Assembly: GCA_028554795.2 (NCBI GenBank)
Contig: JAPYKE020000269.1
Coordinates: 220,075 to 284,074, forward strand
Direction of reading: 5' to 3'
DNA length: 64,000 bases
From: Sinohyriopsis cumingii
Taxonomy: Eukaryota; Mollusca; Bivalvia; Unionida; Unionidae
The notes under the pieces are model-generated. The model ran no database searches. It saw only the letters and a program-made list of their open reading frames with translations, and was not told the origin of the DNA. Shown here piece by piece: positions 1,003 to 55,330 of the stretch. Both the position numbers and the translations under genes were made by a program. Position 1 is the first letter of the stretch. Each line of letters begins with the position of its first letter.

Positions 1003-1169
1003 TTACGATATCCGGGTTCTTGGTTTACCCGATTTTAGGCAGGTGCGCTTCATGACGGCAATGCACACTATGATGTTCAAAACGGCGATACCAATCATTA
1101 GATATCCACCCATAATTAGGAGGTTCATATGCAGCTGACCAAGATGGTCATCATGTTTAGCCGGGTGCT
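1003..1169 (-). CDS. Gene A exon 9: transmembrane helix and juxtamembrane segment
   Basis: Acceptor TTTTCACTCAG precedes 1169 in phase 1, joining the GCC exon in frame as D-E-H-P. The exon encodes a short polar stretch, then a hydrophobic helix from about NLLIMGGYLMIGIAVL to IVCIAVM, followed by the basic stop-transfer KRTCLKSGKPRTRI. The reading frame meets TAA at 1003-1005, but that stop sits inside the donor ATATC|GTAAGA, with the exon ending at 1007 in phase 2. Gene B exon 9 has the same arrangement. Either the protein ends here with a short tail, or splicing at 1007 joins tail exons outside the window. Confidence 0.8.
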
Positions 1170-4100
1170 CTGAGTGAAAATAAAGAATACAATTTGTAAA
1201 TTCATATTGGGATTATACATATATCGCTATAAACGTAACACATGCATCATTATCTATTAAGATTGATGGATGGATGGATGGATATGTATATGTATGTATA
1301 TTATGTATGGACGTTCGGATGCGGAGTACAAATTAATTAAAAAGGTAAAACGCTTTGTCAGTGGATGCACCACTATTAGATCGTATCGGACAATATGTGT
1401 ATGCTCTAGTTAGCGCAATTATAATACAATCCTCAAAACATCTGCATCTCTGGAAGCATAATGCGAAAGCTCCCTGAATGCAAACTGATAGTTTGAGCAG
1501 TATTTAAAAGTCCTCATGAATTCCAGAGCTTTAATAATACACGTAAATGTTGTCAAATTCTAGCTCACTGTTTGTTCCAAATCCAACTAGATTCCTAACA
1601 TGTATATACATACATACATACATATATATATATATATATATATATATATATATATATATATATATATATATATATATATATATATATATATAATATAGAT
1701 ATATTATGTATTACCTCCAGTGTAGCGTGTTTACTAGTAGTTTATTAGTGTATTTGTGAATTAGGTAATGAATGGGAGTAATCATGGTTTCAACTTGGTC
1801 AGTTCAATTTAGAAGTTAACTCAAGGTAGGCGCAGCAAATGTAAAAGTACATGGAACTTTGTCTCCCAAAAAGTGTCAACATCTAATTAACAGTTTGACT
1901 GTACGTCTGTTTAAAGCTTTCTTTAAATCCGTTTAGCTTTGATAAGGGACATTGAACAGGTTATAGTTATTGTATACTAAACAGAAACGTGTTGCCAAAA
2001 AATATTTTTTACGCCGTCTTACTGTTGAGATCTATCAATAATATTTTCGGATTGCTTGAAGCTGTCACGTCTTTTTTTAATACATCGTGTGTTGGAATCC
2101 AGATTAATGCGACGAGGACATATAAGTTGATTTTCTCACCAAACTCAAGAACGCCAAAGAATCTCTCCGTAGATTCTTTATCGACGTTTCTAGTTTGAGT
2201 GGCTTATAAAATGTGTCTAGATGCTATTAATCTGGTAGGATTGTTTTAGCGCTACTCGACAATGATAGAGATAGAAAGATGTGTCCGAATGTAATAATGG
2301 TGGCTGTCATAATAGTCTTCATCCTGTTTAATTATTTATATAGATATTTATATTCTTCACATTATGTTCAGCCACTTTACTTTAATATTAATTTTCATTT
2401 GAGTCTATGGTGAATTTCCTTTCTTCTTCTTTCTAACATTCCACTTTAAAGTCAAGATTTAGAATTCACTTATACAAACCTAAAATGTACAGTGACCTAT
2501 TTCAGAATCATTGTTAGAGATGAAAATGCATTTCGTGTTTGGATTCGTTTATTTATGAGGCAGTACTATAATTTGGCTTTTGTAATCTGCTTATGTAGAT
2601 ACGACCGTTTCTAACGCTACATGTATTTTCAAACGAAGATCAAGGACAGATCAAGAAATAATTACTATGAGGTGTGTGTTGGCTAGGCGATGCGTAGGCA
2701 AATAAGCTTTTGTCAGGGGTATATAATTCCTGGTGATAATAAAATAGATGATAATTTTTATTATAAACAGAATATGGCATCACAAGCAGGCAGCTACAGA
2801 ATGGGAAGCTCCTGCATTTTATTCGTTTCCTTGGCATAATTTTAACGATTTCATTATTAAAAAAAGACATATCGTTACCTCCCGGTCATTATATTCCTGG
2901 AGGGCTGGGGAGCCGTCCACTTATTCAACCAACACACACTGGATCCACACCCAATCACTAGGGTATTCAAACACCATTATTCGATGACAGCAGTGTAATG
3001 TACAGAATTAATTTCCTCTGGTCAATTATCAATTGATTGAGCCCCAATCTAATTCCAAGGTACATTCATTTTTTTTTTACTTAAAAAGAAATCCCAACAT
3101 ATGCCCCCTAGTCGAAACGAGAATAGACATAATTTATGTCCGAAAATCCTTCATTAATTGTAAAAATGCAGCTTTTTTCATGATTAAGCTTGTCGTCAAC
3201 TCTTGCACAAAGAACCCGCCTGTAGTCTGAAGACATATTGGGATAATTAAGCTAAAACCAATTAGAAGGAAAGAACAGCAAATGTACGCTCTTTCTTGAA
3301 CGACCTATACATTATTGTAGTAGTCCAGCCACTCCCCCACAACTGGTAATGAAATGGATCATGCATGCTATAAGTGTTTGCTAGCGAGATTATACAGTGT
3401 CTTTAATACATCATCATTGTTCAACATATACAGCTTTACCTTATTTTAACAATCCCTACTCATCATTATAACATAATATACAAATACGACAGGAATGTGA
3501 CATCTGCCAAATAGTCAAAATGATGACCTTGGAATAACTAAGACCAAACTTGAATAGAATAAAAAGACCTCAAAATGCACACTCTCTTTCTTGAACATGC
3601 ATTTTTATAGCTTGCTAGCTAGACTATATTATATCTTTAACAAGAAAATAATCAGTAGCATTGTTCAAAATAAACAACAAAATAAACAATAATACGACAG
3701 ATGCAAGGTCCCAGAAAATAGTATAAAATCAGGTCCAAATGGTACAGATCTCTCTCACTTGACTGACATCTACCTAATACTCAAATACAAGTCAACTAGC
3801 TTACACATACTGGAGAGTAGACTAACTAATGTACAAATATTCTTCAAAATGTGTTGTTATAACGAAACAACAATTCCAAGTGTGTTACATTTGTCTTATT
3901 TGCATCCATATCTGATTGTATTTCAGCATTAATTGCCCAATACCTAAACGCCTTAATGGAATAGCAAATGTTGACTTCCAATGCATATTGCCGTGCTATA
4001 CCTTAAGCGGAATTGACCTTACGACTGTATGAATTAAACACCATTTGAGCCAAAAAGTGTTTTCAAACATCTGCAAATACTAGCCTAAGATAGGCTTTTG

Positions 4101-53522: not shown

Positions 53523-55238
53523 CTAAAACACAAAGAATTGCAAAACTATATAACGTGTTAACGATTGTGTCCTATATACCTGAGAGAATCGGCTGTCGAA
53601 TGGGTCAGTCTGATATTTCGGAGTACAGCAATTAGAGTATTAGCACAAGCCTGCTATCAACATAGAGTCTGTATCATATTGCACGATAATTTACAATGAA
53701 GAACGTAATTTATTCCGCATGTAACCAGTACATCCATAAAATTCAGCATGAAGACTTAGAATACGTTGTCAGAATAGGGCAATCTAGCGAATATTTATTA
53801 TAGGCTTTTATTGCAAAGTCATGAGATCTTCACTTCGAAACCACTTGGAAACTCCGATATGAAATATGCTTAATGTCTGAATAATGAATATAATCATCTA
53901 CATCAATTTTCAGTTTTAAAAAAAAAACTATTTCTTGTTGATATATTACCCAGGGGACAGGATAACTTCCAAGAAGTATTATGAGTATATACGTTGTACA
54001 TAGAATAGTCGCTTTTTCACACCAAATCGCATTTTAGATTAGATACCTCTAAATGCCACTAAGTTCATATGTATGTATGTATGTATGTATGTATGCATGC
54101 ATGCATGCATGTATGTATGTGTGTGTGTGTGTGTATGTATGTGTGTGTATATGTATGTATGTGTGTATGTATCTATGTATGTATCTATGAATGTGTGTCT
54201 CTACGTATGTGTGTCTCTATGTATGTATGTATGTATCTATGTATGTATGCATGTATATATGGTTAAAATGTCTCCTCTGTTAAGCATCCACCTGATCTAC
54301 AGTCCCACATTTTATATGTTCCTGAAACCAAAATATAATCTGGAAAATCACTTGGATTAAATTCCTTCTTTTTAATTTCTCACAGTTGAATGCATTTGAC
54401 TGTTTGGTAATGTACGCATGCATTTTTGAGGCTTTACGTCGAGAGACATTATCATGGTTACTTAAGTTCTTGGTTTAGGCTGTTAACGTTTGCATATCTG
54501 CAGGTATTATTTCATGGGTTAACCATTTCAAACACCCCAAATAAGGACAACCCCGTAATGGTAAGAGACTGCAGCTCCTTCAAAGGTAAAAAAAATAGTA
54601 TCACCTATATGAACACAAATCAAAGACATATCAAGACCAAATAGTTCAACCAACATCAAGGGAGGCAACGCATGCCACAACCCCAAACTAGTCGGTTATT
54701 AAAGTGAATGTGTATGGATTGTTCCTTACACTGTCCATAACTTTGCACCATCAATTATTAGTTAACACAGTGACTTACGAGTGATAAAATTCAATTTAGA
54801 TACCCCTCGTTTCAGATACTTTGCCAGGGCCACCTATGATCAAAACACTCCGTCATTTGCTCAATGCAATTAGCAAGCAGTGGTAATATCTCATGTGTTC
54901 ATCAAGTTGCGACGATGCTAACTAATTAATAAAGCACTGGATCACTCGTTTGTTTGAGCCTGCCTCTTGTGCGAACCATATTCAACCACTGGACATCACA
55001 GTTTCATCAATCAAGCTAATTTATATTGAATGAATAATTACAACGCATGCGACAATGTGTGAAAGATCGGAACTAATCAGAGAGAGAGAGAGATGTATAC
55101 ACGTTCATTAAACGGAAACAAGGCTCCCCAAGTATAGATATCAATATAACATTTATACATCATATAGCATATCAATGATACAACGCATATAATACATGAT
55201 ATATTTTATTTATGAAACATACAAATACACGTACTTAC
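53523..55238 (-). other. 5'UTR intron of gene B
   Basis: 1.7 kb; contains the (TATG/TGTG)n array at 54069-54261 and otherwise unique sequence. Confidence 0.5.
54069..54261. repeat. (TATG)n/(TG)n degenerate microsatellite
   Basis: TATG units with GCATGCATG, TGTG and TCTA variants; plus-strand frames across it give Met-Tyr-Val-Cys repeats only. Confidence 0.95.
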
Positions 55239-55330
55239 GTTTCTAACGGAGTCGAGAATCAACAGCGGAATCAGCCTGTTGACGGTAGGAGTTAATTCTT
55301 CACACGCTCTCTAATAATGTCCGCAATGAA
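55239..55330 (-). other. Probable non-coding first exon (5'UTR) of gene B
   Basis: A consensus donor TTAGAAAC|GTAAGTAC ends the exon at 55239. A TATA box lies 29-36 nt upstream of the estimated start near 55330. It would splice to the acceptor at 53522. The start is estimated from the TATA box; no transcript evidence is available here. Confidence 0.5.

Follow-up and report, generated by a model that had tools for sequence, protein, structure and literature searches.

Are the two neighbouring genes A and B, in the final 64 kb of contig C269 (JAPYKE020000269.1; 284,074 bases) of the bivalve Sinohyriopsis cumingii, separate members of one receptor family, and do they belong to a larger cluster? 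Invertebrate SRCR genes multiply in tandem, which is thought to widen innate recognition. The original prediction, made from the DNA letters, had taken A and B for tandem SRCR/GCC2-GCC3 receptor genes with identical exon plans. The 64,000-nucleotide stretch that was analysed (the window) shares one end with the contig. Our reading, to which we assign a probability of about 0.78, is that A and B are paralogous type I receptors of a same-strand array grown largely by duplication of B-A gene pairs, in which the SRCR domains would bind ligand and the tail of B would signal.

The host genome (2.9 Gb, 1,138 contigs) was searched, and the sequence read from C269 amounts to 218,005 of its 284,074 bases. 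The whole-genome search with A covered the best candidates only, so that copy and match counts are lower bounds. Copies beyond the window are named c1 to c5 by their position on C269, and the exon labels used are S1a, S1b, lnk, S2a, S2b, E69, GCC, TM, e10 and e11. Short protein matches inside TATG and AT repeats were set aside.

Two genes with one exon plan

All nine predicted exon pairs lie on the minus strand and have exactly the predicted lengths (A/B in nt: 58/58, 160/142, 152/143, 39/39, 148/148, 134/137, 69/69, 408/411 and 163/148). In both genes exons 2-9 begin after AG acceptors and exons 1-9 end at GT donors, the entering phases are equal (0,1,2,1,1,2,1,1,1), and the joined frames are stop-free across the nine exons, giving 443 aa in A and 431 aa in B. 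Splice model, Pfam and conserved-island comparison back exons 2, 3, 5, 6 and 8 of A and exons 2, 3, 5 and 8 of B, while exon 7 of each is backed by splice model, cysteine count and conserved-island comparison. The features of gene A, in window coordinates, are:

25612..25669, minus strand: exon 1, 58 nt, ATG and signal-peptide-like stretch (length and GTAGGA donor also in c3)
23556..23715, minus strand: exon 2, 160 nt, SRCR1 first half
20089..20240, minus strand: exon 3, 152 nt, SRCR1 second half
19762..19800, minus strand: exon 4, 39 nt, hydrophilic linker mini-exon (recurs at 39 nt in five further copies)
18551..18698, minus strand: exon 5, 148 nt, SRCR2 first half
15759..15892, minus strand: exon 6, 134 nt, SRCR2 second half
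12851..12919, minus strand: exon 7, 69 nt, four-cysteine module
9537..9944, minus strand: exon 8, 408 nt, Ephrin_rec_like (GCC2/GCC3) repeats
1007..1169, minus strand: exon 9, 163 nt, predicted transmembrane segment and first cytoplasmic residues; an in-frame TAA overlaps the GTAAGA donor
66..142, minus strand: candidate further A-type exon, a 77-nt island with 79% identity to c3 DNA, at most possibly coding

Those of gene B are:

53392..53449, minus strand: exon 1, 58 nt, ATG and signal-peptide-like stretch (equal length in c4, counted by eye)
52220..52361, minus strand: exon 2, 142 nt, SRCR1 first half
50158..50300, minus strand: exon 3, 143 nt (152 nt by an alternative acceptor), SRCR1 second half
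48502..48540, minus strand: exon 4, 39 nt, linker mini-exon (recurs in other copies; conserved-island comparison)
47283..47430, minus strand: exon 5, 148 nt, SRCR2 first half
45047..45183, minus strand: exon 6, 137 nt, SRCR2 second half, fast-evolving (splice model, dN/dS, cysteine count)
44529..44597, minus strand: exon 7, 69 nt, four-cysteine module
41132..41542, minus strand: exon 8, 411 nt, Ephrin_rec_like (GCC2/GCC3) repeats
39129..39276, minus strand: exon 9, 148 nt, predicted transmembrane segment (splice model, conserved-island comparison)
37939..38047, minus strand: exon 10, 109 nt, predicted cytoplasmic tail, absent from the earlier model (equal length in c2)
37625..37738, minus strand: exon 11, 114 nt including the stop, predicted C-terminal tail with three tyrosine motifs (stop position kept in c2)

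Two acceptors of B are ambiguous without effect on the phase, that of exon 2 lying at 52361 or 52355 (6 nt) and that of exon 3 at 50300 or 50309 (9 nt).

A direct BLASTP comparison of the A and B proteins aligns 425 aa at 37.4% identity (E 1.3e-94), and their likeness is therefore homology rather than chance. In line with the predicted divergence around a kept cysteine framework, each ectodomain holds 32 cysteines, seven in SRCR1, five in SRCR2, four in the 69-nt exon and 16 in the GCC exon.

Adjacency, a common strand and a common exon order would also suit a single long gene with repeated cassettes. Against this, A and B each possess an ATG and a 58-nt signal-peptide-like exon, exons of the same length with matching donors stand in c3 and c4 (that of c4 counted by eye), and the stop-containing exon of B (37625-37738), which is kept in c2, comes upstream of A exon 1 (25612-25669). 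Since A and B have their own starts and B its own end, we reject the single gene as extremely improbable; they are separate tandem genes, as had been proposed. An extension of B to 55330 is, by contrast with that proposal, unsupported: its first coding exon is 53392-53449, and the B-c4 comparison contains no conserved island near 55330.

Domains and cysteines

In each of the joined proteins a Pfam search recognises a pair of SRCR domains and four stretches of Ephrin_rec_like, in agreement with the original assignment. PF00530 (SRCR) matches A and B with 88.7 and 84 bits (3.3e-25 and 9.6e-24; Pfam cut-off 26.1), and PF07699 (Ephrin_rec_like, formerly called GCC2/GCC3) with 106.9 and 80.7 bits (4.3e-31 and 6.3e-23; cut-off 23.1). 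The ELAPOR1 TNFR-like model also matches, but under its cut-off. No kinase domain appears among the Pfam matches of A and the nine-exon B, nor among the PDB matches of the 505-aa B described below.

A published account distinguishes SRCR groups with six, eight and seven cysteines per domain (PMC10855680). With seven and five cysteines, neither of our domains has the six of group A or the eight of group B. Group C, the sponge type, is defined by seven with an added C1. SRCR1 has seven, but its extra cysteine, which may or may not be that C1, stands six residues before the next; it is found in four of six copies (A, B, c3 and c4, not c1 and c5). In all seven copies, judged by eye, SRCR2 is missing the cysteine that would stand between its pair of conserved tryptophans. 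A disulphide between SRCR1 and SRCR2 would even out the cysteine count in A and B. A later SRCR1 cysteine is also missing in c3 and c1, which counts against such a bond, so that we offer it only as a guess.

The topology may be that of a type I protein; a hydrophobic N-terminus and one 26-residue hydrophobic stretch are seen by eye. From its N-terminus the predicted receptor would run through a signal peptide, SRCR1, a short linker, SRCR2, the four-cysteine module and a GCC2/GCC3 (Ephrin_rec_like) stalk to one membrane span, and A and B are very likely cell-surface receptors of this plan.

Seven or more copies in tandem

The idea that the cluster extends beyond the window proved correct. A search of the flanking contig found five more copies on C269, all on the minus strand, bringing the total to at least seven:

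C269 ~176-167k, minus strand: c5, A-like
C269 150-125k, minus strand: c4, B-like
C269 111-76k, minus strand: c3, A-like
C269 ~53-38k, minus strand: c2, B-like
C269 13-7k, near the contig end, minus strand: c1, A-like

The type of each copy follows from its identities to A and B. In the GCC region c3 is 74% identical to A and 48% to B, while c4 is 68% identical to B and 45% to A, and c2 69% to B and 52% to A. Exon S2a of c1 is 81% identical to A against 42% to B, and exon S1b of c5 88% against 37%. Exon S2a of A itself is 81-85% identical to three A-like copies, compared with 46% to B. Since the copies thus sort into A-like and B-like types, the split between A and B is older than the growth of the array, and the old duplication that the original prediction supposed is upheld. 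In the order of transcription the copies read B, A, c5(A), c4(B), c3(A), c2(B), c1(A), alternating save for the extra A-like c5. The array would have grown largely by duplication of a B-A gene pair after the two types had diverged. Among the matches listed in the whole-genome search with A, none falls in 177k-220k of C269, and those off C269 concern the GCC region only, save two weak SRCR matches on contig C4 and one on C11.

The exon plan recurs along the array. In each of the five further copies no 39-nt phase-1 mini-exon in the part of the matching intron that was read scores higher than the 39-nt linker, making seven of seven with A and B. Exons S1b, lnk, S2a, S2b, E69, GCC, TM, e10 and e11 are seen in c2, the DNA of its first two exons lying outside the sequence read, and eight exons are found in c4. 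Neither tblastn nor a profile of B and c2 matches a membrane exon in c4, where part of the expected stretch reads N, and we claim no absence; the match of that profile to c2 is by construction and provides no independent control. The tail exons of c4 were not found in a stretch that is partly masked. Exons S1a, S1b, lnk and S2a are seen in c1, whose later exons would fall in partly masked DNA or off the contig. Copy c5 is decayed: its TM exon carries a one-base frameshift, and the donor GT there is lost with the in-frame TAA kept. No match to its exons 6-8 occurs in 167301-177300 of C269, and the alignment of c5 with A skips the stretches of A that hold those exons.

Conservation and evolutionary rates

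Conserved islands between copies were compared with the exon positions, applying one rule to the observed exons and to all circular shifts. Islands outside the gene spans were dropped beforehand, as were those in a 38-bp tandem array (window 50613-51378, 20 copies, 92% match) in the intron that follows exon 2 of B. The A-c3 islands make up 10% of the A gene span, touch eight of nine exons and cover 1273 of 1331 exon bases, which none of 24,401 circular shifts matches. Because c3 is unread over about 4 kb of the intron after exon 8, exons 1-8 were also taken alone; seven of the eight are touched (0 of 15,901 shifts). The B-c4 islands, 16% of the compared span, touch all eight exons in it and cover 1109 of 1147 bases (0 of 12,301 shifts). 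Conserved islands thus independently support the predicted exon positions.

Over the compared exons, the ratio of amino-acid-changing to silent substitution rates (dN/dS) is 0.34 (A-c3), 0.37 (A-c1) and 0.40 (c1-c3) for A-type pairs and 0.44 (B-c4), 0.30 (B-c2) and 0.31 (c2-c4) for B-type pairs. With values of 0.30-0.44 in six same-type pairs that leave out c5, the exons are therefore coding and constrained. These ratios also bear on the suggestion that the array consists mostly of decaying pseudogenes. The frameshift of c5 and the missing matches to its exons 6-8 speak for that suggestion, but all nine shared exons are open with splice sites in A, B and c3, every c2 exon read is kept, and the gaps at the 3' end of c4 and in the later exons of c1 may be masking. 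We judge general decay very unlikely.

Constraint is uneven along SRCR2. In B-type pairs its first half (S2a) is nearly frozen (dN/dS 0.09-0.18), whereas the second half (S2b) gives 0.92-2.56 on 45 codons. Amino-acid-changing sites in the three B-type pairs number 7-9 of 109 in S2a against 29-31 of 103 in S2b (Fisher p 3e-5 to 2e-4, on rounded counts).

The 3' ends of the two types

At 1 kb past exon 9, B and c2 share a block with two more exons and their splice sites. Exon 10 is 109 nt long in each copy and leads from phase 2 to phase 0; exon 11 has the same stop in the two, with one 9-nt difference. With these exons, which are new relative to the original prediction, B is complete at 505 aa, and its predicted 86-residue cytoplasmic tail bears the tyrosine motifs VYENAAL, VYANTV and MYDVI.

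At the exon 9 donor B and c2 read GTGAGA where A and c3 have GTAAGA. The latter overlaps an in-frame TAA, as any phase-2 GTAAG donor does, and A may either splice onward here or stop at the TAA. If A-type genes stop there, just after the membrane span, their receptors would have short tails and act as partners to the signalling B-type ones or as their decoys. Consistent with this, the TAA is kept in all three A-type copies read at this point (A, c3 and c5), even in c5 with its GT lost, and the peptides of B exons 10 and 11 and of the c2 tail have no counterpart in the A-type sequence read. Against it, A and c3 keep an unbroken GTAAGA, which is what a phase-2 donor should have, with GTGAGA standing at that place in B and c2; the missing GT of c5, a decayed copy, carries little weight; and the further conserved 77-nt island (66-142) lies about 0.9 kb on. 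That island has no codon-position bias by eye and remains a candidate only. On this balance a short-tailed A is conceivable, if rather doubtful. Conserved A-c3 blocks at C269 ~219.6-218.3k were considered as an A tail and rejected, having frame-breaking indels and a non-coding look.

Proposed function

In the reading that we prefer, the SRCR pair would bind a ligand, perhaps microbial or altered-self, and the cysteine-rich stalk would hold the pair off the membrane. The B-tail tyrosines (in YENA, YANT and YDVI) would be phosphorylated and recruit SH2 adaptors, and a wider range of ligands would follow from copy number together with the rapid change in the second half of SRCR2. The gene models, the homology, the array, the tail exons of B and the domain assignment are demonstrated; expression, topology, ligand and signalling we infer. 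A role in recognition or clearance is probable; the chance that the B tail signals via phosphotyrosine is about even.

Several observations weigh against parts of this reading. The gene models were built on genomic sequence, the calls of a signal peptide and a membrane span were made by eye, and the model of A ends at exon 9. The excess of S2b dN/dS over 1 is not significant (p ~0.06 in the B-c2 pair, on hand-rounded counts); the ratio is only 0.92 in c2-c4, and it is 0.33 in A-c3, so that a fast S2b is not general. The tail of B is itself fast-evolving (dN/dS 0.75 over 70 codons), and that of c2 lacks the first tyrosine site of B and has the other two in changed form (YYNTV and TYDIA). The YxN (pYxN) of the B tail resembles an SH2-adaptor site.

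Instead of an immune role, the receptors might have one in adhesion, in development or in clearance by endocytosis. SRCR and ephrin-receptor-like modules are found in many non-immune proteins; recognition receptors would, on the other hand, better account for genes multiplied in tandem, one copy in decay and one half of SRCR2 that changes unevenly fast. We hold a non-immune role to be a tenable minority view. A bolder proposal than our preferred reading is an array of paired receptors, an invertebrate counterpart of the immune receptors that pair a long-tail with a short-tail form, in which tyrosine-tailed B and short-tailed A share one ectodomain plan, locked by an SRCR1-SRCR2 disulphide and multiplied as B-A pairs. 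This we think unlikely.

Neighbouring features and genomic context

At 56276-59416 of the window, on the plus strand, lies a broken retroelement, of non-LTR (long terminal repeat) type by eye, with its reverse transcriptase in 57900-58742 (RVT_1 match 2.4e-32); three open reading frame (ORF) pieces adjoining the RVT_1 piece have no Pfam match. A second, different reverse-transcriptase/RNase H-like element, recognised by eye, lies on the plus strand between A and c5 (C269 ~203.5-205.8k). Between A and B there are minus-strand ORF clusters at ~25950-27900 and 31700-33330, the first of them in a stretch of raised GC (24001-28000, 0.39). Five ORF pieces from these clusters have no Pfam match.

Genome-wide there are at least 153 SRCR matches. 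Many of those on contigs C6, C8, C10, C14, C17, C105 and C273 are half domains, broken near profile position 50, which suggests that the split-exon SRCR plan is widespread in the host genome; those on C4 are mostly whole domains. Other clusters of GCC2/GCC3-like ORFs lie at C5:21.06-21.51M, C3:102.2-102.6M and C10:110-116M, with no match to the SRCR exons of A nearby among the matches listed.

Relation to known receptors

Among solved structures the best match of B is CD163/M130 (7e-36, residues 22-223). The multi-SRCR proteins CD163/M130, PIT54, CD5L and CD6 have two consecutive SRCR domains, like A and B, but A and B differ in their stalk of GCC2/GCC3 repeats and in the seven and five cysteines of their SRCR domains. 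For the stalk the best solved match is the mastigoneme protein Mst1 (8.5e-26). Eph receptors, Mst1 and ELAPOR1 share PF07699 repeats with A and B (four stretches each), whereas A and B combine the repeats with SRCR domains and have no kinase match in the joined proteins.

PMC10855680 describes SRCR genes that have expanded in tandem in sponge and sea urchin, a part of them with exon plans that match, and discusses them in terms of immune recognition; bivalves there also exceed gastropods in SRCR gene models. The sponge and sea urchin clusters are tandem arrays like that on C269, which differs in keeping two old, mostly alternating types. The terms 'ephrin' and 'GCC2' have no occurrence in the main text of the same paper, and literature searches, which did not extend to domain databases, found, among the papers listed, none describing the combination of SRCR with GCC2/GCC3.

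The cluster is thus ordinary in kind and uncommon in its domain combination. By uniting SRCR domains, an ephrin-receptor-like stalk and, in B, a tail with tyrosine motifs, the C269 array provides a compact, testable case of divergence between the ligand-binding and signalling halves of such receptors. As an instance of the multiplication of probable immune receptors in invertebrates it is unusual, yet readily understood.

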